Of a stretch of 64,000 bases of DNA, positions 2,726 to 59,713 are shown piece after piece. Below the pieces are notes generated by a model. It saw only the letters and a list, made by a program, of their open reading frames with translations. It was not told the DNA's origin and did not search any database. Both the position numbers and the translations under genes were made by a program. The DNA is from Norana najaformis (taxonomy: Eukaryota; Annelida; Clitellata; Crassiclitellata; Hormogastridae): NCBI GenBank assembly GCA_964023275.1, contig OZ029914.1:50298530-50362529 (forward strand), read 5' to 3'. The first letter of the stretch is position 1. Each line of letters begins with the position of its first letter.

Positions 2726-3058
2726 AATCTTTCGAATGTCAAGAAGAGAATGGTAAAAAGGACTACATGGGAGTCAATAATTTCGATTTAGCACAAGATG
2801 TCATCGCCATTCTGTGTATTTCCACATATAATGGCAATATGCCCGCAAAGTCAATATGCGAATGGTCTTCTGGAAAGGAGCTACACAATAAATATCAACA
2901 AGTCACGAAAACGAATACAAGCATGACTTTGAGAATTCAAATGCCAGCTACAAAAGAAATGAACAACAATACGCTTTACTGCTACGCAAAGATTGAAATG
3001 GAGTCCAGTGAAAACCAAAATCCGACTATTTGGAAATCTACAAAATTTAGAATAAATT
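2726..3058 (+). CDS. Ig-like domain exon (gene A)
   Basis: This is a complete phase 1-1 exon of 333 nt (111 codons). The acceptor is TATGTATTGCAG (AG at 2724-2725) and the donor is AATT/GTAAGT (GT at 3059), a near-perfect consensus. The protein begins ESFECQEENG and contains AILCISTYNG (B-strand cysteine) and SICEWSSGKEL (C-strand tryptophan). TSMTLRIQMPATKEMNNNTL then leads to the F-strand Y-C-Y-A-K. The Asn-rich stretch before the second cysteine holds an N-glycosylation sequon (NNT). Its start (E-S-x-x-C), E-W-S core and T-S-M-T-L-R strand resemble the gene B exon at 63892-63554, so the two genes look paralogous. It is an extracellular domain; its ligand is unknown. Confidence 0.85.
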
Positions 3059-7322: not shown

Positions 7323-7490
7323 ATGCCAATTTCCAGCACAAGACAGTATCAAGTTGTAGTGGTGACGAATTGTCTCTGGACTGCAATCCGCCTTGCAAGG
7401 CGAGTCGAATTACCAATGGATCGCACATTTGCGAGATTGCATACCCAAGTCACACCGTTAAGAAATTTTACGTCTTGCTACAAGACTACA
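7323..7490 (+). CDS. Cysteine-rich ectodomain exon, possibly lectin-like (gene A)
   Basis: This is a phase 1-1 exon of 168 nt. The acceptor is TGTGTATCCATCTAG (AG 7321-7322) and the donor is CTACA/GTAAGT (7491). It encodes DANFQHKTVSSCSGDELSLD, then CNPPC, RITNGSHICEIAYP and KKFYVLLQDY. The C-x-G-D-E-L-S-L-x-C start resembles the first strand of SUEL/galactose-binding lectin domains (C-x-G-x-x-L-x-L-x-C). The exon is only about half a lectin domain long, and a half Ig domain or membrane-proximal stalk is equally possible. Position between an Ig exon and the TM exon places it next to the membrane. NGS is a glycosylation sequon. Confidence 0.7.
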
Positions 7491-8306: not shown

Positions 8307-8426
8307 ATGAGCCTATCAAAGAAAATGGTGTGCCGATCGCGACTGTAGTGCTGGTTACATTCGGTGTCTCGGCAATTATTGCTATATCTATGGGCATAGT
8401 CATTTGGCGTTTAAAGAAGAAGCATG
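8307..8426 (+). CDS. Transmembrane exon (gene A)
   Basis: This is a phase 1-1 exon of 120 nt. The acceptor is TTTATAATCCTAACAG (AG 8305-8306) and the donor is AGCATG/GTAAGA (8427). It encodes a short membrane-proximal linker DEPIKENG and a hydrophobic helix of about 24 residues (PIATVVLVTFGVSAIIAISM and on to IVIW). A basic stop-transfer RLKKKH follows. Linker, helix and basic flank are the standard type I single-pass layout, so what is encoded downstream should be cytoplasmic. The gene B exon 54662-54546 has the same size class, phases and layout. Confidence 0.85.
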
Positions 8427-13185: not shown

Positions 13186-14462
13186 TTGTAATTGTAATTG
13201 TAATCTGACATTTATAAGGCGCCAATTCAAGAATAGACTCATCAGAGGCGCTCCCGACCCGAACCAGTGAGACCACTGTCAAATAATACAGACTTCAGGC
13301 GCTTGCGAAACTGCGGAAGGGACAAACTGAGGAATGCAAGCCGGAGCCCTCGGGAAAGGCGATTCCAGCTATTAGGTCCAACATAGGCAAAGCTTCTAGA
13401 CTGCGCTGTAGCAGTGCGAATATGAGGGACAGTCAGTAGTCCAAGGGAGGCCGACCGGAGAGTGCTACGGCCTGGAACCAAGGAGACCGGAATGCAGAAG
13501 TCCCTAAGATATGATGGAACAGAGTCAACGAGACACGCATAAGCGTTAGGATCTTGAACTGGATACGCTGGTGAATGGGAAGCCAGTGCAGAGTGTCCCG
13601 CATAAAGGAAGTTATATGGCCATACCTGGGGACGCCTCCAATAAGACGGACAGCAGCACTGATAACAGACTGAAGCTTTGAAATATTGGTAAGTGAGAGT
13701 CCAGCAAAGATAGCGTTGCCAAAGTCCACCCTGGTGCAGATAAGGGCATGAATTAGAGTAGTAACGGCATGAAAGGAGAGGGAGCGGCGGATTGTACGAA
13801 GCTAACAAATGTGGTAAAAGCATGAGCGGGAGACATTGTCAACATAATCGGTCAAGGAGAGTTTCCGGTCCAGAACAACCCCAAGATCACGGACTTTGGA
13901 ACAGAATAGAATGTCCGGAAACCTCTGGCGTAAGGATGATGAATCGATCTTAGAAAGCTGAGCACGACCACCAAGCCAGATGAACTGGGTCTTAGCACAG
14001 TTCAGTCGGAGCCGATTAGAGGACATCCAGAGACCAAGCGTAGATGTTGAGTCAAGAATCCTCTCAACCAGAGAGGAAGCCGCTTTCGCTGGGCCATGAG
14101 CGAAGGCCTGAGTGTCGCCTGCATACTGATGGACAGCAACACCCATGGGAAGGAGATCCCGTGCCAGGTCGGCAGTGTACAGAATGTAGAGGAGAGGGGC
14201 CAGAACAGAACCCTGAGGAAGGCCAGAAGGTATAAGGGACCAGGCGGAACGTGTAAAACTTAAGATAACAGAATGAGAGCGGTCTGAGAGGAATGACTGA
14301 AACCAAAGAAGGGCAGTATCGGTAATGCCAAAAGATTTTTCTAGACGCTCCAAAAGGATAGAGTGATCCACATTGTCAAAAGCAGTACTGACATCATAGA
14401 GGGCAAGAAGAGTAACCTGTCCACTGTCAAAAGCTCCAAAGATTATCTCCAGAGATCGATTC
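13186..14462 (-). mobile_element. LINE B: CR1-like reverse transcriptase, 5'-truncated
   Basis: A long minus-strand RT frame (14500-13802) reads LLALYDVSTAFDNVDHSILL, WFQSFLSDRSHSVI and GLPQGSVLAPLLYILYTADL. Its catalytic loop is QYAGDTQAF where active enzymes have YADD. It continues with RLRLNCAKTQFIWLGG. A frameshift leads to the C-terminus (LHWLPIHQRIQFKILTLMR, then RTATAQSRSFAYVGPNSWN) ending at 13242. The 3' tail is TTACAATTACAATTACAAT (13187-13205), preceded by TTATAAATGT. The copy at 47453-48055 ends the same way. The YADD-to-YAGD change removes a catalytic aspartate. It is inserted into repeat X. Confidence 0.9.
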
Positions 14463-15010
14463 TTTCGCCCGATTCCACGAACTTTCGATCGGTGAGTCAA
14501 TGGACCTCTTACTGTCGGATCTATGACTCAATTAACCGCGAGTAATACAGCAATTAATTGCCTTTAAACTACTGAAAACTCGTCTTTTCTTAACGAGTAA
14601 TGTGCAGCCATTTTAACGGTCTTTATTCTACCGTAGCTCGACACAAGACTGACTATTTCCAACGTTCTGTCGTATAAATACCCATTAGTTCGTATTCTCT
14701 GAAGCGTGACGTAGGCATCCTACGTGGCAAAAGCACGATCACTGGATCTCGTTTCCATGATAAACAGCTGTTTGAATTTCAACGGCATCTTTCAATTCTG
14801 CAGATTTACCGTCTGTTTTAATCCAATTGAACGACTGACTTGCTCCGTAACGCTCAGCCAATGCCACCCAAACGCCCAGCTAAACTGCATAAAATCTAAC
14901 TATCTACTTAAGCTGGCCATTTATTAATAATAAAACCCTACCTATTCTGTAGCTGGCTGGCTAATCTTAAATGTAGATCTTAATTAGGTACCCTAACTAG
15001 TCTGTACACT
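14463..15010 (+). repeat. Repeat family X, copy I, right half
   Basis: The blocks follow the same order as 33030-33600: atgactcaat/tatgactcaac, atttccaacg/attttcaacg, ggcgtctttcgattctg-like text and ctaagctggcc. It completes the copy begun at 12540, which indicates that LINE B inserted later. Confidence 0.6.
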
Positions 15011-18405: not shown

Positions 18406-18604
<199 letters not shown>

Positions 18605-18955: not shown

Positions 18956-19694
18956 ATAACATTTTTTCAATATTTCACAAAAAACGCTATTATTCGTTTT
19001 CACTGTATAACACCTAATTTTGTTTGCTTCGTAAACTTGTAAATAAGTCTTTTGGATCCTCTATTTTATTAATAAAAATGCAATAAAATCCATGCATGCC
19101 AAAGTTTAACCAAATTTATTGCAATATTTTATTTACCTTTTTGAAAGAGACATTCCGGAAAACTCACATTTGACACCATACAAAATAAGAACTCGCTAAG
19201 CAACTCAACCTGAAGCGTGATGGATTAAGCATTAAATAATTTTTCTGAAAATCTCATTCTAGTTCCTCCTCTTTTCCTTATCTTTCTCACCGCTCCAATG
19301 CCTAACAGCACCAAGCGCAGCAGTCTTCCTGTCTACTTGCCTGATATTTTCATTTTGATTCGGAAACGAACATTCTTATATATGTTTTACCGATTTGCTA
19401 TAATATTATTCACACATAACAATATATATACATATTTATAAAATCAAGTATTTATTACTTTGACCGATTTGCAAGGGTTATAACTAAGTGAATATTTCTT
19501 TTATTCTAGTTCAAACTTTCTAGAAAAACATTTGGAAACTGTGATACAATTCGAAGAAAAACGATGAGAATGAGAGCAGTCTTAATGCTGATTAGGCTGT
19601 CAACTGATAAGATAATCGCTCTCCAGTTGCAAGTTTGTGCATTATTGTAGTACACTTGTCGTCTGTATTTAATATTTTTAGTTTATATTTACAG

Positions 19695-19742
19695 CTCTCG
19701 AAACAACTAGAGCTTCACTTAAGCTGGAATTCCCCGAATCAG
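19695..19742 (+). CDS. 48-nt exon 1 of the array (gene A tail)
   Basis: The exon is 48 nt, phase 1-1, between GTTTATATTTACAG (AG 19693-19694) and CAG/GTAAGC (19743). With the leading G supplied by the preceding exon it encodes ALETTRASLKLEFPES. It has no Cys and is rich in Ser/Thr and charged residues. The branch/polypyrimidine region (gtctgtatttaatatttt..) and both splice sites are conserved in all five cassettes, while the peptide diverges. By position after the TM exon it would add 16 residues to the cytoplasmic tail. The function is unknown. Confidence 0.65.
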
Positions 19743-19800
19743 GTAAGCCATACTGAATGCGCATAGTTTGCACATGTAACTGCAGAATGACGATTTACAG

Positions 19801-19806
19801 ATCATC
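19801..19806 (+). other. Possible 6-nt microexon (cassette 1)
   Basis: The site reads TTTACAG/ATCATC/GTAAGT. Acceptor and donor both match consensus and lie 6 nt apart, 58 bases after the 48-nt exon. Six nt keeps phase. Equivalent sites exist in cassettes 3 and 5. There is no transcript evidence. Confidence 0.2.
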
Positions 19807-21512
19807 GTAAGTATTGTGTTATTCTACGATGCTTTACATTGTCAATTGCTTTCGCGTTTTTTTAGCAAGTGCTGAAAGAATTAAACAATAGATCAAATTT
19901 CATATGTTCTTTGAAGGCTTGAAACCTCTTGACCTGGTTTGTTTGTTGCTACCACCCGTTAAAATATACTTCAGAGAGCAGATAGGTTTGAGATTGGCAG
20001 GTTGACTTTGACATAGGCCCCTATGCAATAATAGTTTCATTCTGTTCATACGGCACTATAGAAGACCCGAGCATCCGACGTCATCGAAGTTCTGTTCGTT
20101 CTTCTTGTCCAGTGCAGTAAACCACATCACATGGACTTCAGTGGATTTAGATTCCCCTGTAGACACCGGAGGCAAAGTTCCACGTGTCTACACTCAAACA
20201 CGCAAACACGCCGGTACACACAATAACCTCTAAAATGCTTGCACTGGAAAATCGAAAAATATATGCAACCCTCAGCGCATTAGCCGATAGTGTCAACAAA
20301 ACTGTTTTCAACACGATCTTTACTTATCTAATGACTTCTATAGCGCAGTTACGATGAAGCGTCCATATCTATTTTGCGCTTCCTTAATATTGTAAATAAC
20401 TCTTTTGGATCCTCTGTTTTATTGATGAAAATGCAATAAAACATTGCATACCAAAGTTTAATCAAATTGATTGAAATATCTTATTTACTCTTTTGAAAGA
20501 GACATTCCGTAAAATTCAAATTTTGACAACATGCAAAATAAAATTCCGCTAAGAAAATCACTTCAGGCTTAAATGATTAAACCATTATAGAAGAGGTGCA
20601 CAGGAAGAAGAAATTGGAGAAAAAAACTCCGAGGGTGACGGATTGGTGACAAAAGTTGAACCTTTTAAATCTATGTTATGCATTAGAGGGTAAATAAATA
20701 CACCGAAAATGGGCTTAAACCAGTGAAAACTGGTCATATTTAAAATAAATCCGAAGCTACTCGAATTTCCTTCAATAACAAATTTAAATAAATTGGTTCA
20801 AATTTGTTCATAAAATGCACACAGTTCACACTCACTTGAATTGCTACGATTTGGTCTTAAATCCCAAAAAGTCACTTGATTTTATTCATCAGTTATCGCC
20901 GACTTCTATAGCGGAATCATAACACCGTAGCAATCGGTGACTTCTTCAAAGTGAAACTGAAATATGTTACAAGACCTATTGGTCAAAGTCTGATCTAAAT
21001 TTGAAATGTCAGAGAAACTAAGGTGACGGGCTACTGTGGAAAAGCATGTTGGGAAAGATTGTTTTTGAGACTGAACCTGAACGAAAACAGGGAAGTTGGC
21101 GGCAAGTGCCAAAACTCAGTTAACCTCTAGGAGCGTTAGGCCTACAATTTTCATCTTGATTTCATATTCTTAAAAATCAACGGGTTTCATAGGCGTGTAC
21201 TGCTGACAGAAGCCCGGGAGCCATGGCGCCAATGGCGCCGATGCTCACACAAGTTTTGGCTCTGTGACGCCGAGGCAGGATCATGCTCAGACAACTTTTT
21301 AGGGCAACGGAGATATCTACCTATGCCACTGAATAAACATTAATACTATAAAAGTATTAATGTGATATATAATCTGATATTACGTCACAAATTAATTTTA
21401 TCCAGGTTAGGCCTGCGTTTGGCTGAGGTTGGCTCGCACAACTTTTAAACACTTCCCGGGCCACTGACTGCTGAATAATCGACAACTCTTTGATATTGAG
21501 TTTGCTCAGACA

Positions 21513-23870
21513 TTTTATTTATTTATTTATTTATTTATTTAAAGCACTTGTAACGCGCGCAATGTCAGTAAACCTGAATCTGAGGCGCGAATGTATGTTC
21601 GTTAGGGGTCAAGATGGAGTCATGCAAAAGCCAGGATGAAGTAATGAGTCTTAACAAGTGATTTAAAAGATGATAGCGAGTTTGCAAGACGGGCCTTTTG
21701 TGGTAGACGATTCCAAATGCGAGGAGCACAACAGTTAAAGGCACGTGATCCTACAATTGTCCTGAACCTAGTTTCTTGCAAAAACCAGTATCAGAAGAAC
21801 GCAAGAATCTTGGAGGGTGATATGGAATCAGCAAAGTATTAAGATATGATGGAAGGCCAGTGTTCTGAGCCTTAAAAGTCAAGATTGCAATTTTCAACTT
21901 AATACGCCACTCAACAGGAAGCCAGTGAAGTTCACGAAGGCGATCTAATGCATTTGATGAAGCAGAACATGTTACAACCCTAGAAAGAGAGTTTTGAACC
22001 CTCTGGAGCTTTTTTACATTAAGAGAAGATATACCATATAACACCGCATTTGCATAGTCTAATCGGGAACTTACAAGTGTACATGCCACGGTTTTAGCCA
22101 TGTCATTAGTCAGAGAATGCCTGATGTGGTAGAAACAAGACCTACAAATCTAAGATACGTGTGAAGTCATTGTGAGCGAGTTGTCAAGGGTGACATCAAG
22201 AGTTTTGATTTTGTCTGATAGTGGGATTTTGGTTCCTGCAAGGTCAATGGAAGAATGTGAAGTGAAAGACTGCATACACTGGTGAGTTGTGAAAAGAATT
22301 GCCTCTGACTTATCTGGATTGATTGCAAGAACATTAAAGCAGAACCAAGTGTGAAGAGAGGACAAACAATTTTCGAGTTCAGTTTTAGCTGAGGAATCTG
22401 TTGCAGATAGAGCAACATAGAGTTGAGTATCATCAGCATATTGCTGGACCAATGTATTATGCGTGCGTGCAATTTGACAAATGGGCGAAATAATAATAGA
22501 AAATAGGAGAGGTCCAAGGACAGCACCCTGAGGTACATCTGAACGACAGGCAATAGGATCAGAGCGAGATGAGTTTATTGCCACTCGGTGAGAACGATCA
22601 TTGAGATAAGATGATATCCAGTGAAGAGCAGGACCAGTAATTCCAAAAGATGTGTAGAGTCGAGACAGCAGAATACCATGATCTACAGCATCAAATGCAG
22701 CACTCAAATCAAGAGATATAAGAAGAGATGCTTTTGCCGGAATCCACTGAATTAAATATAATGTTGTGTGCTAGTAAGAGCAGTCAGAGTTGAATGATGT
22801 TTACGATAAGCCGACTGAAAAGGACTAAAATTTGGAGATGTTACATGCCCCTGAAGACGTATGAGGAAAAGGCGTTCAAGCAGTTTGGAGATATTACTGA
22901 GATTGGAAATAGGCCTATAATTAGCCAGAAAGTCCTTATCAAGATCAAGTTTTTTTAGTAGAGGTGTTACAAGAGCAGACCAGTCTTAAAAAGCAGAGGG
23001 AAAACAGGCTTCACAAAAAGAGAGAATAGTCAGGTGAGCAATGAGGATAGAAAACACATTTGAACAGGATTTAAGAAAGGAAGTTGGAATGAAGTCCAGT
23101 TGTGACGATTTAGATGGAACATTTCCGATGAGCCTAGCAACTTCCGGTACTGTAACGGGAGGTAAGGTACAAAACTAATTGCCAGGATGTGTAACATCAG
23201 GAAACAGTTTTGCCCTGTCTAACCCAGACCTACTCTTTGATATGGCAGACTTTAAGTTAGATATGTTAGCAGGAAAAAAATTTGAAAAACCTACACAGAG
23301 CTTTTTGTCTGCAAGGTCACTAGATAAATTGGAAGAACTGTTCGAGGAGTGAAGCAGCTTCTTTATGATGCTCCATCGGTCTTTAGATGTTTCGACAATG
23401 TCCAACTGGTTACGGAAGAACTGCTGTCGAGACGTTACAGTTAGTTTGTTAGACACCCTTCATGCTCTTCGGTAGGCGATTCGATCGCTTTCCTGCAGAG
23501 TTTTCTTCCACCGACGTTCCAGATGATGACGATCACGTTTAGCCTGCTTTGCTTCATCAGAAACCCATTTTGTGATTGGCAGGTCTTCTAAAGCAGGTGC
23601 GAACAGGAACAACTTTATCCAGCTTCCTCGAAACAACAGTAGAGAATTGCTCTTCAAAAGCATCTGCTGTCTGGGCTGGATCTGAAGACAGTTTAATGTT
23701 GAACAGAGCCTCCTCAAATTCGACTGGGTTGATCTGGTTGATTGGGCGAAAGGAAAAAGCAACTGGTCTGCTGGACGCACCCACTGCTATTGTAGTAGTG
23801 ATAAGACTGTGGTCAGAGATACAGCCAGCATCACCGACCCGAACATTTCCAACTGTCGCAGGATTATAAT
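21513..23870 (-). mobile_element. LINE D: CR1/L2-like reverse transcriptase, (AAAT)n tail
   Basis: The minus strand carries a linker (23784-23175: KWVSDEAKQAKRDRHHLERR) and an RT core (22707-22150). The core has AFDAVDHGILLSRLYTSFGI, VPQGAVLGPLLFSIIISPIC and an intact catalytic QYADDTQLYVALSA. The C-terminus (22101-21751) has RLDYANAVLYGISSLNVKKL and LHWLPVEWRIKLKIAILTF. The 3' end is an (AAAT)n tract (21513-21541 on the plus strand). The endonuclease end is missing beyond about 23870. Frames are broken between blocks, but this is the only LINE here with a clean YADD. It is antisense to gene A. Confidence 0.9.
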
Positions 23871-24106
23871 AATTACTAGTTGTGCTGCAGTAGCAAGCAG
23901 GTGCGGGTACCTCAGAATAGGTATCTCTGAGAACCTAACGGCTCAATAGAAGTAGACACAGGCGAAAACTAGTCTAACGTGCAGGCCAGTAGGACAGGAA
24001 CGACTAGCAGTACAGCTGGAATACATAAGGTCTGGAGAGAATTCATATGAGCGCCTGCCAGACACGGACAAGAGGTCAGTCAGAAGTCAGCGGCCAGAGC
24101 AGTCGG

Positions 24107-25661
24107 TCAGAAGTCAGCCTGTAGTGTTGCATTCAGACGCGCAGAACTGGCAAGATAGTCGACGGGTCGGCCGAACATTCGTTTAGAATAGACTGAGCTG
24201 AAAGTCCGGCAAGGCGAACATTCTCGTTCTGTGTAATGTAACTCTATCAACCTAGAAAACGTTTGGAGGACATTCGCGTTGAGAAGACTTTCGTATCGTA
24301 AAGACATGCATATCCAGAGAGTTGATAAAACTACAGAAGTTCCTCTCAGTTTAATCACACACACAAAAGAACTCTCTGACAGTACTGTACAACCACATGA
24401 GGATGAAGATAGATTAGCTTCTTTAGTCCATCTGACCAACGCCTGACTTGGCTCACCGGTTTGATGCCAAAACAACGTTGCTATCATTCCATCTCATTGC
24501 CAGCATTTCAGACTTCCTCTCTAGACGATAGTCATAAGATTCTCGTGTTTCTTTCCGTAACTCTTCCACTGATTTCAGAAGGCATTTTCCCATCCTGTTC
24601 ACTCTTACAGCTCCTACGACAGATATATTCTTTTCTCTGAGGTAGCCCAAAAGACGAAGGAGGTGAAAAAGTGTCAACAAACAATTTGGCACTCCAAGAT
24701 TTGCATCATACGATCCTTACGAACCTTGGTAAGGTTCACACTGAATCAGACAACCTAAACGCGACTTTAGACACCATACTTTGAATCTTGAGCTTATAGG
24801 TTTTTTACGTATAAACTGCTTTAAAGAATGACGGCCAAAATATATAGGGTACCATCGATTCATATACAGGTACATTCTGTTCAAGTGGCCAATTCTTCAG
24901 AAAACGTTTATTGTTCATGTTGAATAATAGACGCAATTTGGCCATTTTGTCGTTAGCTTCAAGGTTGTTGTTGTAACATACGTGCAAGAATTGTAACAAT
25001 TCTTCGAAACGATTTCAGGGTAGAGCACTACTCACTGCTTCGTTGTGTCTTCACCGTTTTCTCAAAACATACGTCTGTTTACATCGTCAGATATCAGCAA
25101 AATTACCAACACTAGTCTGATTTCCGCTGAGGTTGCCCCCAGCTATCAGGGAGGTTGGGAATCATAGAGGTTCAATTACTTCATCAGCAAAAAATTCAAA
25201 CAGCTGCTGGAGATAATTCTATAGTGTGAATATTCGTTTGAGATGCAATCCATGGCAGATCAGGATCTCGAAGGTCAGTTTTTACCCATTGACACTCTGA
25301 TGACACTTTCTTCTTCCTATGATTTACTTTGGTTGCACAATGGGTAGCCACTGAAATTCTGGTCTGGTGTAGAGATGATGCCGATTTTCTTGCGTGTTTT
25401 TGCTGGAGGAACAATATTTTCTGCAGGCAATGATTGCTCAGGTTCATCGGTACTGCATTGGGCAAGCAATTCCTGATTATCTTCGGTCCTATCATATTCG
25501 TCTAAAATGCCAATGAAATTTTGCTCGTAAGTTGATACCGTTGTTGTTGCTTCTGCTTTTGCACGCAAGTAACTTCCTGTAAAATTATTATCTACATCAC
25601 CGTCATCGTCTTCTGGTCCACTGTCTTCGTCAGATCGTGTTGGGTTTTTGGGTGGCAGCAT
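24107..25661 (-). mobile_element. piggyBac transposase pseudogene
   Basis: The minus strand shows the family layout. An acidic N-terminus (25661-25317: RSDEDSGPEDDDGDVDNNF) is followed by a segment ending in ECQWVKTDLRDPDLPW (25270). A core block (24999-24805) reads QFLHVCYNNNLEANDKMAKL, then [21 protein letters not shown] downstream block has LREKNISVVGAVRVNRMGKC and SYDYRLERKSEMLAMRWND (24692-24453). The ESM motif keeps the position of a catalytic aspartate (D to Y/E change in VDESM). Stops and frameshifts divide at least five frames, so the gene is dead. No terminal inverted repeats or TTAA sites could be assigned. It lies between exon cassettes 1 and 2. Confidence 0.8.
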
Positions 25662-26104
25662 AAATAATTATTAAATATGTTGGCATTTTGAAATTCGTCG
25701 CCTTCTTGCAACAAGCTTACGACTTCGGCAACTGTATATTTAACTAAAATTGCAAATACTGTCCATTCACTGCTTCTATAATATGAATTAATGTTACCAG
25801 TATGAGTGTAACCAGTGTACTAGAATTAATTTTAGGTCTAAACAAAATTTGAATACAATTTTTCTAATATTTCACAAAAATCGATATAAATCATTTTCAC
25901 TGCATCAAACCTTCTTATTTTGTGCTTCCTTAAGAACATATGTGCATTGATTAATGCTGAAATACAGTTGTAGTCGTACTAATGGACACAAAAGTGTTTA
26001 ACTAGCGCCTATTATTTTGACTAGTCTGTGAAGTACACGCGGCCTCTGGCACATGGCGTCCTGTTTAAAGGACAGTCATGAAATTATTTATAGCTGCAAA
26101 AGTA

Positions 26105-26620
26105 AACAACCTTGTAATCTTAGTAGTAATCGTAATCTCAAGATTTCTACGGCGCCCAACGAAAACCAAGTCGCGGAAACCAGCTTAATCACAGGCGCTC
26201 AATCAAAACAAAATCGATAGGCAAGAAGGGTTTGGTTCCAGATCATTTCGCAAGAGTCAGACAGGCAGGCAGGCAGTCAGACGGCTACGGTGGATGGTGT
26301 TCAGCATTGGATCTTCAGGATTAATAAGGGGAAGAAGTGGAATCATGATAGGATCTGAGGAAGAGAAGTTTTTTTCAACTTTGAGTGCAAGACCTGAGCA
26401 GAAATTGCAAGGGATGAAGTGCTGGCGAGTTCGTAAGATGAATCAGATAACTGTTGTAATTCTGACGGGTGTTTATTTTATAGGGTTGAAACAGCTATGG
26501 TTATGAAGCGATTTCCAAACTGTTTGAGAATGAGGTGAGGGGAAGCGGAGAAATGTTAGAGCAGATGAAAAGCGGATTGAACGGAGTGGTTGGATTTTAA
26601 ATAACTGGAGAAAAGAGGTC
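26105..26620 (-). mobile_element. LINE C family 3' end
   Basis: A well-preserved antisense 3' end. The terminus is agtaatcgtaatctcaagat, then ccagcttaatcacaggcgct and a short CAGG seed at 26260-26277. The last coding bases of RT (cggattgaacggagtggttg) lie near 26570. It is a typical 5'-truncated insertion of about 515 bp. Confidence 0.8.
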
Positions 26621-26889
26621 TAACCAAATAACATTTTTAGAATATTTCAAAAAAATTCTATTATTCGTGTTTCCTGCATAAAACCTTGTTATTTTGTGCT
26701 TCTTTAACTTGTAACTAACTCTTTGAGATCCTCTGTCTTATCAATAAAAACGGAATAAAAACAATACATACCAAACTAAATTAAATGCACTAACAAGCAT
26801 TAGATTAGGCATTAGGAAATTAATTAATTAAATATGTGCACATTTATATCCACCAACACAACATCAAATGCAAATTCAAAAGGAGGATC

Positions 26890-27500
26890 GCTACAACGCC
26901 ACGGAAGCTTACCCCACTGACGCCTTTCAAAAGGCTGGTTGGTGCGCTCCCAAGCAAGTCAAAGAGGGTGTATGAAGTTCGGGAAAGGATACGTTAAACA
27001 ATTCTTTGTGAAACAATGGGGTAACTTTACGAAACCTTACCTCATTGGTGCCGCTTGAGACACCGGTAAGTGCGCTCCCGGAAAAGTCACAACCACAAAC
27101 TCCACTGTCTGGTTCAGATACGGCTTCAAAAGAAACAGATTTTAGGGTACGGATCTACTCTGTTGCAAGATCGCGAGACAGACCGATTCCCAATAGCAGG
27201 AAAACAGGAGCTTGTGTGAAGCTCGTGAAAGGATCCGTTAAGCAGGTCTTGCGAAACAAGAGCCTAACCCATCGGTGCCGATCGAATTCCTGGTCAGTGC
27301 GCTCTCGGGAAAGTCACAGCCGTAACATTGGCTATTCAGATGCCGCCTCAAAAGGATCCGATTTTAGGGTATAACCCAACCTTCGCGAGGTCGGTAGACG
27401 GACTGTTGTAGATGGCAAGAAGATCAGAGCTTGTGCGAAGTTCGGAGAAGGACATGGTGAAGACTACGAAAACCCACACCACAACGTTCCCAAGTAAAGG
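26890..27500 (+). repeat. Unclassified degenerate tandem repeat, about three units
   Basis: A pair of landmarks recurs about every 215-250 bp. They are tgcgctcccggaaaagtcac-type text (26941, 27068, 27294) and a gaagttcgggaaaggatacg-type block (26973, 27219, 27436). The best frame (27045-27374) carries the repeat at the amino-acid level, SDTASKETDFRV then SDAASKGSDFRV. That suggests an ancient coding minisatellite, but the frame is open for only 109 codons. I do not recognise the family. Confidence 0.5.
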
Positions 27501-28239
27501 AAAGACTAAATCAGACGAAGAAAAGATCATCGAAAGTTTAAATCGCTCGAAGAAAATAACCGATATGTCAAATTCAGGGTTACCCTGATAGAGCAGAAGT
27601 TGACACGGTGAAACCGACTCAATATTTACTTGTCATAAAGCACAGCTCAGAGAACTGACTGAAATTTGAACGTAGGGCCCCTACGTTCATATGTCGGGAC
27701 GAAGGTCTGTGTGCAAACAGCGAAACGTTCACAGTTCGAGTTTCATAGAGATTCTATTGGTACTTTCAAAGCAAAATTATTAACTATGTTGGTCGAGAAC
27801 TGCCAACGAGAGGAAGTCCGTAGTTAAGAAGGGACACGAAAAGGGACCATAGCCGGCAAAGAAACGTATCCTGTTTTGAGGAAGGCCATCCTCAGGACGT
27901 TGTCTTTCGGCTATTGCGAAAGAGGCAGAATTCGATCTTGATAGCTCTTTACGGAATTGCCTCCCTTATGGAAGCTGCCAATCCTGAATCTTCCCTGGCA
28001 CGAACGGGCCCTATGGGCAAAAAAGATACGGAGCGATCATTTTACATCGAGAGGGGCAGTGATGCGGGTTGCTCTGAGCATAGAACTTAGCGAAGTCATT
28101 TTCAGACCGCAACAGCCACAAAATCTTTTCCTAATAAAATCTAATCTCTTGCGTCTGAACCCATATAATCTACGTCAGTAATTCACAATTCATTCACCCC
28201 GACCAACCGATTCCTGAGCAGTAGCTTTACCCACAGGCC
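27501..28239 (+). other. Unclassified sequence between tandem repeat and cassette 2
   Basis: Moderately GC-rich stretch with no recognisable domain in any frame. It interrupts the alignment of cassette 2 to cassette 1, so it and the tandem repeat probably arrived as one insertion after the duplication. Confidence 0.35.
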
Positions 28240-28700
28240 TTTCATTCAAAAGTGAAAATAATAATTTTCCCAAAAATCTGAATCCTACTCTTTTCCTTAT
28301 CTGTTTCATCATTCCAGTGCCTAACGCCACCAATCGCAGCCGTTTTCCTGCCCAATGTTTTCATTTTAGTTCGGAACCGAACATGATTATACATTTTTAA
28401 CCGATTTGTTTTAATAATATTCACATATAACAATACATAAATATATAAATACAAGTATTTATTGCTTTGACTGACTTCCATTTGTTATAATTAATTGTAC
28501 ATATCTTTCTTTTTAGATCAAAGATTCTAGAAAAACATTTGAAAACTTTAACTCAAACGAAGAAAAAGATGAGAATAAGAGCAGCTTGAAGGCTGATCAG
28601 GCTGTCAGATGCTACGTTAATCGTTCTCAAATTGTTAGGCTTTTACAATAATGTAGAGCAATTGTCGCCTGTACTTAAAATTTTTAGTTTGTATTTACAG

Positions 28701-28748
28701 CTCTCGAAACAACCGGCGCACCACTTTCGCCGAAATTAGCCGATACAG
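28701..28748 (+). CDS. 48-nt exon 2 of the array (gene A tail)
   Basis: This exon is 48 nt, phase 1-1, between GTTTGTATTTACAG and ACAG/GTAGGC. With the leading G it encodes ALETTGAPLSPKLADT, sharing its first five residues with exon 1 and then diverging to a Pro-containing sequence. The microexon-like site downstream has lost both splice dinucleotides here (28800). Confidence 0.6.
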
Positions 28749-29224
28749 GTAGGCCATGTGCATAGTTTGTATATGTAACCGTAAAATGACGATTTACATA
28801 TCACCTGAAGTAGTGTGCTATTCAATAGTGTTTTACATTGTCAATTGTTATCGCAAGATATTCTGAAAGTGCTAAAAGTAATAAACAACAGATCAAATTT
28901 CTATATGTTCTTTGAAAGCTTGAAACCTCTTCTGACCTGGTTACTATGTTGCTACGGCTCGAAAGAATCAATAAAACTCTGCTTTTCAACACTATCTTTC
29001 TTGTCTAATGACTTCTATAGTGCAGTTACCATCAAGCGTCAATGATTATTTTGTGCTTCCTTAACTTGTAAATAAGTCTTTTGGATCCTCTGTTTAATTA
29101 ACAAAGATGCAATAAAACAATGCATACCAAAGTTTAACAAAACTGGTAATAATATTTTATTTACCTTTTCGATAAAGACATTCCGGAAAGCTCAATTTTT
29201 GACAGCATGCAAAATATGAATTCA

Positions 29225-29545
29225 TAATCGCAATCGTAAATCCGAGATTTCAACAGCGCCCAGCGAAAGCCACGTCGCGGGGGCCAGCTTATTCACAGGC
29301 GCTCAGTCAAAATAAAATCGACAGGCAAAAGGGTGCGGTTCGAGGTCAAGATCCAAAAGTCAGACGGAGAGACAGCGTGGCAGCTGTGGGGGATGGTGCT
29401 TGGGGTTGGAGAGGAGGGAGAGATAAGAGGAAGAAGGGATGTCAGCGTAAGATCTGTGAAAGAGGAATGTTACAGCTTTGAGTGAAAGGCCGATGCAGAA
29501 ATTGCAAGTGGTGGAGCATCGATGAGTTTATATGAAACCGCTCAG
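29225..29545 (-). mobile_element. LINE C family 3'-end fragment within cassette 2
   Basis: Blocks ataatcgcaatcgtaaatcc, gccacgtcgcgggggccagc and tcaaaataaaatcgacaggc identify the family. It is absent from the corresponding place in cassette 1 (20540), so it inserted after the duplication. Confidence 0.7.
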
Positions 29546-30352
29546 GAAATCGAGTTCATGCTTAATGGATTAAACGATTATCGAAGAGGTGCACAAGAAA
29601 AGGAACTTGAAAAAACTGTGAAGGTGGCGGGTTGGTGGCAAAATTGAACCATCCTTTAAAATGGATGCTATGCATTAGAGGGTTTGAATGTAACTAAATA
29701 CACCGCAAATGCGCATTAATTAATAAAAAACGGCCTTAATTGGTCATATCTAAAAGCAAAACCGAAACTAGCCGAATTTTCGTTGATGACAAATTTAAAT
29801 ATTTGGCTCAAATTTGCTCCTAAAATGCACACAGTTCACTCACTTGTTTTGCTAAGATTGGGTCCTAAATCCGATAAAGTGACTTGATTTCATTCATCAG
29901 TTATCGCAGACTTTTGTAGCGGTATCATAGCACCGTAGAAATCGACGGATTCGTAGAAGTGAAATTGAAATCTGTTTCGAAACCCATCGATAAAGGTTTG
30001 GTCAAAATTTCAAATGTCAGAGAGACTAAGGAGACGGGCTACTTTGGAAAAGAATGTTGGAAAAAAGCATTTTTGAGACGGGACCTGAGTGACAACAGGG
30101 AAGATGGCGGCAAACCCTAACCTTAAGGAGCATTAGGCCTACAATTTCCATTTCAATTTCATATTCTTAAAAATTAAGAGGTTCCATAGGCGCTAACTGA
30201 TGAATAATCATCAACTCTTTGATTTTTAGTTTGCTCTGACATATTAATGTAACAACCTTTCAGTTGTTCTACAAGCAGTTTCAGCGAAAAATTTATTATA
30301 CTACTTTGAAATTTTGTTTTGATCTAACCTACTTAACTCTGTTCTGTTTCAG

Positions 30353-30382
30353 ATCTCAAAACCGTACTTGCTAGAATTGAAG
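30353..30382 (+). CDS. Candidate 30-nt exon between cassettes 2 and 3
   Basis: An acceptor with a pyrimidine tract (CTCTGTTCTGTTTCAG, AG 30351-30352) is followed 30 nt later by GAAG/GTACTG. Phase 1-1 reading with a leading G gives DLKTVLARIE. It fits the phase rule of gene A but has no homologous copy in the window and a weaker donor than the 48-nt exons. Confidence 0.3.
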
Positions 30383-30730
30383 GTACTGATAAAAAACATT
30401 ACAGTTGTAATCTCATTGTAAATAAGACGATTATTTCGGATCTTTGCTCACTCAAATAGTAAGTAGCCTAATGCAATCTCGTAAAAACTGGGTTACGGTG
30501 GTTTAAGAATAAGCAGATTTTCATTAAAAATGTTAGAAACATTAAATTTAAAAAATCGTAAGTACAGAAAGAGTTGAATGTACAAGACCCAAATACTTAA
30601 AGACAGCAATCACCGCTACAACGCTCTAAGATATAGAGTAATAAGTCAAGTTTTTCCCTCATTCATATGATAAATTGTACCCTGCATACCAACTATGCAA
30701 TGGCATTCACGTGGAAATATGCATACCACA

Positions 30731-30920
30731 GGGGCACGGTAGCATATTAGATAAAGCGCTTGGCTTGTAACGCCGTGAGTACGGTTTCGATCCTCCTCCG
30801 AGTCGATTGCTGTGTGAATACCTTGTGCAAGTCCTTACTTACATTACCGGGCGTCATCGATTGATGCTAAGTCATTGGATATTGGCGCGTAATAGATGCA
30901 AAAATATATTAATAATAATA
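30731..30920 (+). mobile_element. tRNA-derived SINE with TAA-rich tail
   Basis: An A-box-like TAGCATATTAG (30740-30750), an anticodon-loop-like CTTGTAA and a B-box-like GGTTTCGATCC (30783-30793) are spaced as in a tRNA. A family body (catcgattgatgctaagtca, then ttggcgcgtaatagatgcaa) and a short TAATAATAA tail follow. The body recurs at 37795-37845. The acceptor stem does not pair, so it is a SINE head rather than a functional tRNA gene. Confidence 0.7.
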
Positions 30921-31768
30921 TGAGCTGTAATGAAGACTCACTAATCTATTCTTGAGGATCGCACATGTCTAAACAAATAACAATAATAATTTACTAATCA
31001 GCAAATCCAGTCTAATAACTTGTACATCACCGTTGTAATAATGTAAAAAATTGGTCGCTTGAAATACAATCGCAGTCCAAAATTATAATCCTTTGGAGAA
31101 GCCTGGTAGAAATTCGATATAAGCCAGAGGAACCTGATCAGTAAGATTACCCGCGATCCCTGTTTTTAAAATTCAATGATCGCTCTTCTGCTCAATCTGA
31201 TCCACCTATTTGGCAATACCTCCTACAATAACTATGGCAACTATTTAATCTATGCTACAGCTCAGCATCTCTTCTCCGCTTGCAATTTCTGCGCAGGCCT
31301 TTCATTCAAAAGTGAAAATAATAATTTTTCCAAATATCCTATTCTGAGTCCTCCTCTTTTCCTCATCTACTTCATCGTTCCAATGCCTAACAGCACCAAG
31401 CGCAGCAGTCTTCCTGTCTACCTGCCGGATATTTTCATTTTGATTTGGAGCCGAACATGATCATACATTTTCACCGATTTTTTAAAATAATATTCACACA
31501 TAAAAACACATAAATATATAAATTCAAGCAGTTATTACTTTGACCGATTTGCAAGGGTTATAATTAAGTGCACATTTCATTTGCTGTAGTTCAAAATTGC
31601 TGGAAAACATATGAAATTTTTGATTCAAACAGAAAAGAAAAAAGCTGAGAGAGCAGTTTGAGGGATGATTAGCTGTCAGGTGCTACGTTAGTCCTTCTCA
31701 AATTAAGTTTTTACATTAAAGTAGTACACTTGTCGTCTGTATTTAATATGTGTAGTTTGTTTTTACAG

Positions 31769-31816
31769 CTTTATCAAGAGCAGAAGCTTCATCAGCGACG
31801 GGATTCGGCGATTCAG
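31769..31816 (+). CDS. 48-nt exon 3 of the array (gene A tail)
   Basis: This exon is 48 nt, phase 1-1, between GTTTGTTTTTACAG and TTCAG/GTAGGC. With the leading G it encodes ALSRAEASSATGFGDS: Ser/Ala/Gly-rich with an acidic end, no tyrosine. Length, phase and both splice sites match the other copies exactly. Confidence 0.6.
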
Positions 31817-31869
31817 GTAGGCCCTAATGAATGTGTTTATAAATATAACTGTAAAATGTCGATTTACAG

Positions 31870-31875
31870 AAAATC
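31870..31875 (+). other. Possible 6-nt microexon (cassette 3)
   Basis: The site reads TTTACAG/AAAATC/GTAAGT, 53 bases after exon 3, the same arrangement as 19801-19806. There is no transcript evidence. Confidence 0.2.
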
Positions 31876-32282
31876 GTAAGTAGTATGCTATTCTATGGTT
31901 CTTTACATTGTCAGTTTTCAGTGCAGGCTTTTTCAGCATGTTATAAAAGAGTTAAACAATAGCTCCAATTCCATATGTTCTTTGAAGGCTTGAAACCTCT
32001 TGAACTGGTTTGTTTGTTGCTACCACCCGTTCAAATATCCAGAGAGGAGACACGTTTGGGATTGGCGGGTTGATTTTTTCTTGCGGAAGTAGCAGTTCAT
32101 CGGACACTACAGAAGACTCAAGCATCCGACGTCGTCGTAAAAGGGTAGCTCTGTTCGTTTTTCTTGTCCAGCACAGTAGACCACATCACATGGACTTCAC
32201 TGGATTCAGATTCCCCGTAGCCACAGCATGCAAAGTTCTACGTGATTACCAGTATATGAACCCGCCTCGTTCTCAAGTCTAT

Positions 32283-32285
<3 letters not shown>

Positions 32286-32330
<45 letters not shown>
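32286..32330 (+). repeat. (AC)n microsatellite
   Basis: About 22 perfect CA units. A shorter one lies at 33639-33656. Confidence 0.97.
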
Positions 32331-32332
<2 letters not shown>

Positions 32333-32379
32333 TGACGCTTGTCTATACTTTACCGTATCTTTTTTTCAAATTTGACGCA

Positions 32380-33600
32380 ATGGCGCTCCATGAATAGCTA
32401 CAAACATTTGAGCAGAGCCATGTTACAACATCGATCTGATGTTGATTACGCCTTACTCAAGCACTTGTTCATTCACTCGACTATTCTAATGTCTTGGCTC
32501 GTTTTAAATAGTCAAAAAATAAAGTTCTGATGAAGGTTCTTCCCACAAGAGACCATTTACTATAATGCAGTTCCAAAAATTTCTAATCTTCCCTATCTAG
32601 GCCAACTAGTTACTTGACGTAAGAAATAATTTATTTACCTCCCTCACGCTTGAAGAAAATCTTTGGAATTTGACTCCGCTCCCAGTCTTTTAGATGAAAG
32701 TTAGCAGTTTGGTTTGTGATGCGTAACCGTGCATTTTCTTTTTCTCTTTCGATTTGCTTTCGAAAATGGCGTCGTCAACAGCAGACGTTGATTCGCACGT
32801 AGATAAAATCGCCGATTGATTCGCGATTTCTTCGTAGTAATTTACAATGATCAATTTGACAGCCCTCTAAGTTGTTTCGATGATAGTTCTACCGAAAAAA
32901 AACAACTTATCCTTCGACAACTTAAACGGATTTAGTGCGACAGCTTTGCGTTGCGATAACAGTTCACAATACCTTCAGCCACGTCTTGTCTACGGATTTC
33001 TTTTCACAGTTTTATCAACGCCCGAATCAATTAACTTTCAATCAGTGAGTCTTTCAGCTAAATCTGCCAAAATTATGACTCAACTATTTGCAAATTTCAC
33101 GGTAATTAGCTACATTTGAACCGCCAAAGCTTGACTTTCACTCGAGAAATGTGAAGGCTATCGACACGGCTTTATCGTCACCAGTGGCCAACAAGACTGT
33201 CGATTTTCAACGGTCCCTCGCTTAAATACACCTCGCAGATCGTCTGCCAAACCGTGTCATAGACACTAAACTCGGTGAAGACGCGATCAGCGCATCCGTT
33301 CCAATGGTAAAATGTCGTCTGCAACATCTATGGCGTCTTTCGATTCTGTAGATTCACTGTGTATAATATTTCCATTGAACGCTTGATTTGTACTGAAACG
33401 CTTAGTCAAGGCAGTGCAAATCCCCATCTAAACTAACTAAATCTAATTAACTACCTAAGCTGGCCTTTAGTAATATTAAAGCCCTACTTACGCCATAGCT
33501 GACCGGCTAAGATTAAGCCAAAATCTAGTCATTCTGAACTAATTCTTAACAAACTTCGACAACTAGTGAGTTTAAGCCATATCTAGTCAAGTAAATATGT
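32380..33600 (+). repeat. Repeat family X, copy II (uninterrupted)
   Basis: It shares ordered blocks with 12540-13185 plus 14463-15010: ttactcaagcacttgttcat, gcgtaaccgtgcattttctt, attttcaacggtccctcgct and ctacctaagctggcctttag. The 1.2 kb length shows the size of the unit without LINE B. No open reading frame, terminal repeat or tRNA-like head is recognised. Confidence 0.6.
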
Positions 33601-33764
33601 ACATAATCACGATAAAATGCGGATTAAAAGTACGGCGCACCACACACACACACACAATAACTTCTAAAAAGCGTGCACAGTGAACTCGAAGAACATGTGC
33701 AATCCTCAATGTATTAGCCTACATAGTCATCAAAACTCTGCATTTCAATACTATCTTATCTTAT

Positions 33765-34325
33765 CTAATGACTTCTATCATGAGGCGCAAAGTATAAATT
33801 GATGGTATCTCCAAGGGAACTCGCACTGAAATGTAATTCGTTGGAGAAGCCAGGTCGAAGTTCAAACAGGAAGAGAAACCAGAAGTCAAGTTACGGCGGG
33901 TCTGCAACCTAAAAGTTTTAAGATGAGTTTTAAGCTAAGATTGAAACGACACTAGAAAACCCACAAAACGCACATAACTAGGCAGTGAATCCCAAAGCCT
34001 TGGACCAGTCACCGAGAACACCCCAGCGCTCAACACTGTTCCGGTGCGTGGCGCAACAAGAGTCAAAGTGTCCGTTGATCGAATGCTATATTTGATAATA
34101 TGAAAGGTGAACAAGGACCGGAGATAAGTCGGCTGATCTACGTGTAATGCCTTGTAAGCTAAAAACATTTTTAAACTGAGGGCTTTGCTCATTTGGCAGC
34201 CAATGCAATGAATAGATATATTGGAGTAATATGCTCATACTTAATTAAGAGTTTTTATTATGTCTCTGGCCAGAGAATTCTGAACTATTCGTGGATTGTG
34301 CAAACATTTTACTTATTCCATAATT
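33765..34325 (-). mobile_element. LINE A/E family RT C-terminus and 3' end
   Basis: The minus-strand frame (34192-33935) reads FLAYKALHVDQPTYLRSLFT, then RSTDTLTLVAPRTGTVLSAG and FSVTGPRLWDSLPSYVR, the usual extreme C-terminus of CR1-like RT. The 3' region with tggagaagccaggtcgaagt resembles 325-515 and 31085-31130. Its upstream part (34190-34320, caatgcaatgaatagatata) recurs at 34745-34860, so it was duplicated together with exon cassettes 4 and 5. Confidence 0.75.
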
Positions 34326-34715
34326 GTTAAGTTTATTTGTCAATAATGTAGTACAATTGTCGTCTGTATGTGATACTTCATGTTCGTTTTTACAGGTGTC
34401 CCAACAACCTACGGTCCATCTTCGCGGGGATTATCCGGTTCAGGTAGGCCCTAATGAATATTCATAGTCTGTAAATGTAACTGTGAAATGACGATTTATG
34501 GATCATCTGAAGTAGTGTGCTATTCAATAGTGTTTTACATTGTCAATTGTTATCGCAAGATTTTCTGAAAGTGCTAAAAGAAATAAACAACAGATCAAAT
34601 TTCTATATGTTCTTTGAAAGCATGAAACCTCTTGATCAGGTTTGTTTTTGCTGCTACTCGTTAAAATATCCTTCAGAGAGCAGAGAGGTTTGAGATTGGC
34701 GCGTTGATTTTTATA
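34180..34715 (+). repeat. Exon cassette 4
   Basis: The LINE remnant (ctctggccagagaattctga) precedes the conserved intron block (atgtagtacaattgtcgtct), exon 4 and the shared downstream block (cagatcaaatttctatatgt at 34589). Downstream it is nearly identical to cassette 2 (gttttacattgtcaattgtt), so those two are the closest pair. Confidence 0.75.
34396..34443 (+). CDS. 48-nt exon 4 of the array (gene A tail)
   Basis: This exon is 48 nt, phase 1-1, between TTCGTTTTTACAG and TTCAG/GTAGGC. With the leading G it encodes GVPTTYGPSSRGLSGS, with one tyrosine in a Pro/Gly/Ser-rich context. The downstream microexon site is lost, as in cassette 2. Confidence 0.6.
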
Positions 34716-34942
34716 TATGCAAACTCAGTTCTTTGTTCATTGGGCAACCAATGCAATGAATAGCTCTATTGGAGTAATATTCTCATGTTTGAGAGATTTT
34801 GTTATGTCTCTGGCCAGAGAATTCTTAACCATTCGTAGTTTGTGCAAGCATTTTACTCATTCCCTATTTGTTAAGTTTTTTACATTAATTAATGTAGTAC
34901 AATTATCGTCTGTATTTGATACTTTAAGTTTGGTCTTTACAG

Positions 34943-34990
34943 TTCGCTCAGCATACGACGCTATGTATTTCATGGAATTACCCGAATCAG
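34943..34990 (+). CDS. 48-nt exon 5 of the array (gene A tail)
   Basis: This exon is 48 nt, phase 1-1, between TTGGTCTTTACAG and TCAG/GTAGGT. With the leading G it encodes VRSAYDAMYFMELPES. It shares the L-P-E-S end with exon 1 (F-P-E-S) but has two tyrosines. Y-D-A-M fits the Y-x-x-M form of SH2 docking sites, so inclusion could change signalling. That role is inference. Confidence 0.6.
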
Positions 34991-35048
34991 GTAGGTGCTA
35001 ATGAGTTTGCATAGTTTGCAGTTATAGCTGTAAACTGAGGAACAACAG

Positions 35049-35054
35049 ATCTTT
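35049..35054 (+). other. Possible 6-nt microexon (cassette 5)
   Basis: The site reads AACAACAG/ATCTTT/GTAAGT, 58 bases after exon 5, the same spacing and size as in cassettes 1 and 3. There is no transcript evidence. Confidence 0.2.
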
Positions 35055-35482
35055 GTAAGTAGTGTGCTACTTTTACGGTGTTTCTGAAATATCATTGAGC
35101 ATTTCTTCTGAAAAGTGAGCTGCAGTAATCGAGTCGGCAAGAAACCAGAGGAGTTGCTAGTGAAATCAAAAGAGTTTGAGGCATGTAAGATCTGATTCTG
35201 CAAATGTCCGTTATGCACAAAGTCCCCTATTTTGGACACACACTTTAAAGTTTGACAAGTGTCCAGGACATAACAATTATTTTAGACATGTGTACAGTTT
35301 TATACTAGAAACTCTAGCGCAATGATATTACCCATGCAACTAGTGTTCATACGTAACCCGAAGTTTAGTGGGCGCAGGGTAGCTTCCACTGTTTTATTCC
35401 ATTTGTTTCGGGGGCGTCCGACAGTTCTCTTCCAAACTCTCTGAGGGTCAGAAATCATCGCTCGCAAGGCCCTGGCATGGTC

Positions 35483-38159: not shown

Positions 38160-39430
38160 ATACTTGACACGTGCGGACAGCATTAAGTAGCCTATTGAAT
38201 GAAATATTTAAATTTTTTATATTTGTCATAAAGTTATTATCTTATGATATATATTCAAAACTATTATCTTACTTCCAATGAGAAGCTTTAATGTTATTGC
38301 ATAATTGTCTAATTGATGTCTGATTGAAACTATTATCTAGCTTTTAGTGATAGATTGCAACTTTTTCTACTGTGCTTGCAAAATCAATAAATTAAATGTA
38401 ATCAAGAATTACAAATGCAGGCCTAAGCAATGAAAGTGAAAGAATAATTGGCGGCGGCATCGATTTGTGAAACTGACAAGCACAGTCGCACAAGAGGCCA
38501 ACCGCCATTTTTAATTGGCCAACACAGGCCTTTGACAGGTGAACTGGCTCCTGATTGTCGGGTCAGAGACTTACATGTTCTCTCGGCAGAACAGAGAGAT
38601 CTTGGATTCGGTGATGCAACCGCAAGCCAGGTTTTTTGGAGTAGCGTCGAACTTTCACCACTGTGAGGTTCTGCAACCAACAACCAGCCAGCTGCTAACA
38701 AATTACTGTTCTGCAGAGATTTTGCGCTTCTATGTAAGGGCGTAATTAACGCAGCGTCATCTACAAGGGAGTACCAGTCGGTGAGCATAGTCTACAGTCT
38801 GTCGTCTTTCCTCGTACTCAGTGCAACCTTGGACCACAGGAATTAAAATAATTATGTTGTCAAATCCCAAGCCCTATTTGGAGTCCTTTGTTTGGGTTCT
38901 ACGTTTGCGCGAGAGGCCGCCTTATCTAGCTATTTCGGAGTCATTTGCTTATAGATTAGCTTTTTGATATTGAACTCTTACATAATTTTGACTAACAAGT
39001 AGAGCCTTCAAAATGTTCTCAGATGGCACTATAACAATGTTAAGTCATATAACATTGTATGCATATAATAATACATATTCATACCTCAAACTAGAAGCAT
39101 GTATAACTTTCTTGTAAATTAAGAGAGTGTGCACGGTTGTCAGTTTCAATTACTTCCGTAAAGTGACCTATTATGTTTTCGCTTGTAAGCTATGTCAAGC
39201 ACTAATTAACTAGTTACTTGATTTAGTTGTTATATTAAAAAATAATGCATTTGATTGAAGTATCTTGTTCATTTCCGACAAAATCACCCAGAAATGTTCC
39301 CTCTTAATTGTATGCATGCTTCACTGCATCATCCATTACAAAAATCTGCTTTACTAATACACCTGAACTTCAGTACTTTCTTAATGCGTGTTGTGCCACA
39401 CAGCTTTTTAAAAGCTATAGATTAGATCCC
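38160..39430 (+). other. Intron of gene A, nearly featureless
   Basis: This is AT-rich sequence. A 121-codon minus-strand frame at 38788-38423 (DDAALITPLHRSAKSL at its start) faintly recalls an RT catalytic region but does not continue convincingly. I see nothing else. Confidence 0.35.
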
Positions 39431-42290: not shown

Positions 42291-42291
42291 G

Positions 42292-42366: not shown

Positions 42367-42577
42367 TTATCAAAATAACGCAATATGATGGGTAACTGTA
42401 AGATCCCCATTTTTTACATATAACCACTACACAGTTTATATCTGTACTTTTTATACCACATTAGCAGGTATGCCTGTATTTGGACATTTCTATAGCGCCT
42501 TTGTGAAGCTGTCAAACGAGCCGACTTTTTTGCATCTGCTGATAGCAGTGGCACCCGTTGAGGTGTTTATTTTTTAG

Positions 42578-59660: not shown

Positions 59661-59713
59661 TATGTTCGGAAACTGTGTTTTCACTTAGCATTAAAAGAGA
59701 AGAGTTGTCAAAC

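Follow-up and report, generated by a model that had tools for sequence, protein, structure and literature searches.

An array of 48-nucleotide exons beside an immunoglobulin-type receptor of Norana najaformis looks to be evolving under strong diversifying selection

A 64,000-nucleotide stretch of the Norana najaformis genome (the window; positions 50298530-50362529 of contig OZ029914.1, here C2, in an assembly of 608 Mb and 17 contigs) carries five homologous exons of 48 nucleotides (nt) that look like a small exon array evolving under strong diversifying selection: their splice signals have been kept, their silent sites have changed much like intron, and their replacement sites have run ahead of both. 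The explanation that we favour, at a probability of roughly 0.55, is that these exons encode optional cytoplasmic-tail cassettes of a type I receptor of the immunoglobulin superfamily (IgSF), which lies in an expanding IgSF cluster, and that amino-acid change in the cassettes has been selected. All positions below are window coordinates unless a contig is given, and negative values or values above 64,000 denote sites on C2 outside the window.

The 48-nt exon array is real and beyond what chance would give. The initial annotation had listed five 48-nt exons of phase 1-1 with their peptides, and every one of them was confirmed at the same place on the + strand (Table 1), exactly 48 nt long, open in phase 1 and with the same translation. 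Their acceptors end in ACAG and their donors read GTAAG or GTAGG (GTARG). A profile of the exon and its flanks matches only these five copies in the window, and a DNA search of the whole 608 Mb with one 173-nt copy as the query, a search that may overlook strongly diverged copies, found six places, all on the + strand and all in one cluster: five are the window copies, and the sixth lies at 92406 in a neighbouring paralogous gene (we call the gene with five copies gene 1 and this neighbour gene 2). The bare pattern of a T at most two bases before ACAG, 48 nt with an open phase-1 frame, and GTARG occurs at 7 distinct places on the two strands of 304 kb, and 6 of the 7 are the 48-nt exon copies. 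The six-copy statistics given here and below use all six intact copies and leave out a destroyed copy in gene 2 (87784-87860) and a partial match at 127996. As had been proposed, the splice sites are conserved above the level of the flanking intron, with 10 of 13 splice-site columns invariant against 43 of 108 other ungapped flank columns (Fisher p = 0.012); donor columns +1, +2, +3 and +5 do not vary across the six.

In each of the 15 pairs that the six copies form, the exon is more divergent than its immediate flanks (splice sites excluded), individually at p < 0.05 in 12 of these pairs, and three non-overlapping pairs together have 59/144 differences in the exon and 87/351 in the flanks (p = 3e-4). 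When a four-copy alignment from -70 to +220 was scanned, none of the 204 sliding 48-column flank windows was as divergent as the exon. On a partitioned tree the exon evolves at 2.5 times the flank rate (twice the log-likelihood difference, 2dlnL, 28.6), and with codon positions separated, the rate relative to the flanks is 3.5 for positions 1 and 2 together and 1.4 for position 3 (2dlnL 37.6). The comparison of synonymous with nonsynonymous change that had been suggested as a check gave, by the Nei-Gojobori method, proportions of silent (pS) and replacement (pN) differences of 0.19 and 0.50 for the five copies, and 0.21 and 0.53 for the six. A one-ratio codon model (M0, our own code) estimated the replacement to silent ratio, omega, at 6.95 (against omega 1, 2dlnL 20.2), and no neutral simulation attained the observed pN-pS, whether at the exon rate (4000 runs) or at the flank rate (another 4000). 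For the other exons of genes 1, 2 and 3, omega between paralogs is 0.44, 0.49 and 0.67 in three pairs of the Ig exon, 0.42 for the second domain and 0.89 for the transmembrane (TM) exon, and the signal is therefore local to the 48-nt exon. The initial annotation had spoken of selection for exon function while the peptides drift; the selection stands, and mere drift does not, as replacement change exceeds both silent and intron change.

How did the copies arise? They are duplicates of segments of 0.3-1 kb whose longer flank matches extend over 300-970 bases at 76-82% identity, which bears out the homology initially claimed for the exons; the length of these matches, and the stronger conservation of the immediate flanks relative to the exons themselves, had gone unnoticed. 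The units of copies 1, 2 and 3 are 76-77% identical to one another along 700-970 bases (blastn aligns copies 1 and 2 as far as about +210), and copy 5 matches copies 1-3 over only ~200 bases at 68-73%. Because of these short matches of copy 5 and the two-sided resemblance of copy 4 (Table 1), the units have been partly reshuffled. Outside the window, at 127880-128073, the intron that follows a likely TM exon (identified by eye) of another IgSF gene shares homology with the intron following the 48-nt exons (E 1.7e-9 in a profile match), which hints at an origin of the array from post-TM sequence.

Table 1. Features of gene 1 in window coordinates
Feature	Coordinates	Strand	Evidence and remarks
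48-nt exon copy 1, ALETTRASLKLEFPES	19695..19742	+	pattern, profile, translation
48-nt exon copy 2, ALETTGAPLSPKLADT	28701..28748	+	pattern, profile, translation
48-nt exon copy 3, ALSRAEASSATGFGDS	31769..31816	+	pattern, profile, translation
48-nt exon copy 4, GVPTTYGPSSRGLSGS	34396..34443	+	pattern, profile, translation
48-nt exon copy 5, VRSAYDAMYFMELPES	34943..34990	+	pattern, profile, translation
Unit with copy 1	19235..20186	+	77% identity to 31320-32244 and, over part of its length, 77% to 28260-28955
Unit with copy 2	28260..28955	+	flank matches
Unit with copy 3	31320..32244	+	flank matches
Unit with copy 4	34173..34720	+	upstream it resembles copy 5, downstream most closely copy 2
Unit with copy 5	34721..35197	+	also matches gene 2 unit at 92177-92660
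Ig-type ectodomain exon, 333 nt, phase 1-1	2726..3058	+	open frame, splice sites; paralogs at 77% and 68% amino-acid identity
Second ectodomain exon, short, with Cys; 168 nt, phase 1-1	7323..7490	+	paralogs at 85% and 56% amino-acid identity
TM exon, 120 nt, phase 1-1, ends KKKH	8307..8426	+	open frame, splice sites, hydrophobicity
Weak candidate shared terminal coding exon, 31 amino acids then stop, phase 1	39023..39115	+	open in genes 1 and 2

To what kind of transcript would these exons belong? A TM exon does precede the array, as initially stated, and the order and phase of the exons, together with the same order in gene 2, suggest that the 48-nt exons are part of a transcript that contains it. 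No second TM exon shared by genes 1 and 2 was seen between the TM exon and 41.7 kb (hydrophobic-segment list, by inspection), so the 48-nt exons would be cytoplasmic if they are indeed downstream of the TM exon. The exons of 333, 168, 120 and 48 nt are all symmetric in phase 1 and any copy could thus be included or skipped with the frame intact; by such alternative inclusion, which these phases would permit, the gene could attach varying 16-residue cassettes after the TM segment. The up to 32 tails counted in the initial annotation would be the most that such a scheme allows. The 333-nt exon has no Pfam Ig match of its own, and its Ig assignment goes through a homologous relative, 31% identical, at C2:50467727, whose score of 22.1 bits lies narrowly above the Pfam ig cut-off of 21.8. 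The 168-nt exon has no Pfam match, and a protein database search with the receptor as query gave 0 of 69 candidates at E 1 or better. Ig-type ectodomain exons and the TM exon are present in several paralogs, and on this basis we call the locus an IgSF receptor cluster. Matches to the receptor query lie on C2 at 0.58-12.8 Mb, 39-40 Mb and 48-50.5 Mb, on C16 at 12.7 Mb and on C8 at 2.9 Mb; they may reflect a large Ig family scattered along C2 and a tight C16 cluster (E exceeds 0.1 for the majority of the 70).

Gene 2 lies ~72 kb downstream and has its Ig exon at 74717, second domain at 82724, TM exon at 85502 and one intact 48-nt exon, VPSKARNDSLMEKTDP, in the same order as gene 1. In its destroyed second copy the intron is retained up to the acceptor and is followed by unrelated sequence. 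A segmental duplication, in which window positions 1-45500 correspond to 70315-106314 in blocks at roughly 65-87% identity, carries the receptor, the 48-nt exons and contactin-like fragments (below). In a third relative, at 222456, both ectodomain exons are present and no TM or 48-nt exon was detected; with five copies in gene 1, one intact copy in gene 2 and none detected here, copy number differs among the paralogs. Other elements of the neighbourhood include a second, convergent IgSF receptor type on the - strand of the window (53762-63890; two Ig exons, TM exon, and a tail exon with the motifs YDSI and YTHL), to which exon sets at -4868..-9140, 195525-193537 and 215027-212528 are related; remains of LINE-type reverse transcriptase and endonuclease, also on the - strand (13805-14527, 17108-17806 and 22153-22770), which lengthen the array introns; and a perfect CAGG tetranucleotide tract of ~50 units at 18406-18604, between the TM exon and copy 1.

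The history that we favour would be as follows: a 0.3-1 kb segment with one 48-nt phase 1-1 coding exon would have been duplicated in place, with an outcome of five intact copies behind the TM exon of a type I receptor, and of two copies in the neighbouring paralog, of which one is intact and the other destroyed. Selection would then have favoured amino-acid change in the cassettes, with the splice signals retained meanwhile. To name a signalling or trafficking protein, or an intracellular pathogen factor, as the driver of this change is a guess. Searches for positive selection in immune receptors usually look to the ectodomain. Here the ectodomain exons look constrained (omega 0.42-0.67 between neighbouring paralogs), in contrast to a 16-residue, probably intracellular cassette with an omega near 7, which suggests that natural selection favours differing receptor tails, and the introns serve as a built-in yardstick for cassette divergence. 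That optional intracellular cassettes, and not the ligand-binding ectodomain, are the fastest diversified part of the receptor, under an intracellular evolutionary conflict or as a form of signal coding in which each copy might be free to change because the others cover for it, is a tentative idea about which we are more doubtful than hopeful. The locus is a compact system for testing tail diversification.

Several points weigh against the cassette explanation. The sample is small, just 16 codons in six copies, 3 of the 15 exon-versus-flank pairs are not individually significant, and 1.8% of the neutral runs at the exon rate attained the observed pN alone. When the flanks are taken wide and untrimmed the contrast weakens, with one of 10 upstream comparisons (150 nt) and two of 10 downstream comparisons (220 nt) showing lower similarity than the exon, in regions where the units cease to be homologous. 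A longer alignment, of three copies, has 190 of 805 sliding flank windows as divergent as the exon or more so; in its non-overlapping profile, all other blocks between -432 and +287 are less divergent than the exon, and the four that begin at +288 or beyond are more divergent. The units are mosaics with both shared ancestry and exchange between copies, so tree-based tests may be disturbed; within the exons themselves, mosaicism appeared in 1 of 15 pairs (p = 0.003), which is unconvincing after correction. The array starts 11 kb past the TM exon with LINE-type sequence between the two, no convincing candidate was found for a signal exon shared by genes 1 and 2, and no good terminal exon was found for the array, the region from 35 to 41.8 kb having given only the weak candidate at 39023. 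In all six 48-nt exons, reading on past the donor meets a stop within 3-5 codons. Finally, strong positive selection is less expected on a cytoplasmic segment than on an ectodomain.

That near stop makes it a live alternative that the copies are alternative last exons, in which case the TM exon would be joined to one 48-nt exon, transcription would end behind it, and each receptor form would have one C-terminus (for example ...PESGKPY or ...GDSGRP) with no combinations. Read-through of each of the six would add 3-5 codons before the stop, AATAAA is present at +132 of copy 2 and +139 of copy 4 and ATTAAA at +138 of copy 1, there is no evident shared terminal exon, and short tails through intron read-through are described for chicken BG genes (PMC5938342). 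No such hexamer, however, lies within 500 nt of copies 3 and 5 or of the gene 2 copy, the donor columns are invariant in all six as given above, and the near stop itself counts for little because homologous introns would share it by common descent. We consider alternative last exons rather unlikely.

The initial annotation had placed the terminal exon near 44.1 kb, and this is unsupported. The stretch at 43838-44017 matches sites at -27290 (44%) and 104699 (47%); the relative at -27290 is uninterrupted and its reading frame extends into an apparently complete Ig V-type domain (Pfam Ig_3, E 0.0011, 19.9 bits against a cut-off of 30), and the short stretches alone give no Pfam Ig match. Genes 1 and 2 have a common frame break and stop near 44 kb and gene 1 has further breaks; since the -27290 relative reads through, the stop is due to the frame break, and 43838-44017 looks like a broken Ig V-type exon, with contactin-like exons between it and the array. 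The 44-kb stop, being common to genes 1 and 2, might conceivably have come into use as an end later. The weak candidate at 39023-39115 has 5 silent and 8 replacement differences between genes 1 and 2.

The intervening contactin-like Ig exons (41657-43010) form degenerate tandem fragments, and the second of them has contactin-2 as its best solved-structure match (E 1.7e-17); a protein database search with the contactin-like query found one unnamed relative among 13 candidates. Could the 48-nt exons belong to this or another product? They might be extracellular 5' exons of the contactin-like unit (41.66-43.0 kb) or part of a secreted, TM-skipped receptor, and diversifying selection would then act extracellularly. 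The first contactin-like exon can also begin in phase 1, and the symmetric 120-nt TM exon (phase 1-1) could be skipped, but the contactin-like exons appear to be broken (gene 1 has Phe where gene 2 has a Cys, and the gene 2 alignment lacks the second exon) and no 48-nt exon was found near the further contactin-like copies at 232-242 kb (232195-233046 and 241060-241895). Such another product is improbable.

Still less probable is that these are decaying or never-used exons, that is, lost-exon copies under neutral evolution. One gene 2 copy has indeed been destroyed, but only 5% (exon rate) or 21% (flank rate) of neutral simulations kept all six copies stop-free and none attained the observed pN-pS, the splice sites are retained, and the exon rate is above the flank rate. 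Carriage of the exons by a mobile element is very unlikely: parts of the outer units do match dispersed repeats (a wider 718-base query had 43 genome matches, and those on other contigs span only query positions ~6-169, a dispersed repeat outside the exon), but exon-bearing matches are confined to six places, in one orientation and one cluster.

Among known systems, the array resembles those of Dscam in that tandemly duplicated exons lie, presumably, within one Ig-superfamily gene; Dscam arrays differ in being ectodomain exons that are mutually exclusive. No Dscam-type docking complementarity was found with one 22-nt element (at most 3 mismatches, in the window), which matched only the exon copies themselves, and pairing of that kind was set aside; other docking designs are possible. 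In conotoxin genes the mature-peptide exon changes much faster than the remainder of the gene and the introns are conserved (PMC3862624), and in snake toxins short exon segments are replaced, a process called ASSET (PMC2711939). Here too one coding exon outpaces the rest of its gene; unlike those separate genes for secreted toxins, the exons here would stand in a row by one membrane receptor, and whereas silent divergence is also high in conotoxin exon 3 according to PMC3862624, in the 48-nt exons it is at intron level.

The fester family of Botryllus and its co-receptors are clustered, polymorphic Ig-type receptors, encoded side by side and with much alternative splicing, and one class of them has YxxI/L/V tails (PMC12065747). 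According to the same source, fester has three TM segments and its splicing lies between the Ig/sushi part and the TM part, unlike this receptor. The two loci are alike in having side-by-side, clustered receptor types of Ig type. Innexins, connexins and GH6 are taxonomic markers; in this genome 73 innexin matches were found, 16 of which span the profile without a break, to within one position, and the profile searches gave no connexin and no GH6 match, both without a positive control. This pattern suggests a protostome or a cnidarian more than a tunicate. A fester or tunicate identity, for which the receptor layout and the GC content (window 40.2%, Botryllus 40.5%) had spoken, was dropped given the innexins and the lack of connexin and GH6 matches. 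COX1-like stretches at C15:412069-412726 and 570464-571281, among four COX1 pieces on C15 with in-frame stops, are probably nuclear copies of mitochondrial DNA.

A close parallel is known in the chicken BG genes of the butyrophilin family, and the initial view that no described receptor family has such an arrangement does not hold. In PMC5938342 these genes are described as having a signal exon, an Ig-V exon and a TM exon, followed by numerous small tail exons; the first codon of each tail exon is interrupted after its first base, as in phase 1, and their number varies between genes. Those tail exons, 27-37 of them in the descriptions there, are 21 nt long and encode heptad repeats of a presumed coiled coil; intron read-through shortens the tails, and replacement and silent counts are said there to support selected tail variation. 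Gene 1 would be very similar in plan, with Ig exon or exons, TM exon and several small duplicated exons of one phase, and gene 2 has the same order with one intact 48-nt copy. Gene 1 differs from BG in that its exons are 48 nt long, five in number over 15 kb, strongly diverged and, by eye, free of heptads, and its receptor Ig exon has no Pfam V-set match, a comparison made against Pfam and not against BG sequences. If the cassette explanation is true, then taken with the tail variation in chicken BG, which also looks selected, it would point to receptor tails as a recurrent target of diversifying selection.

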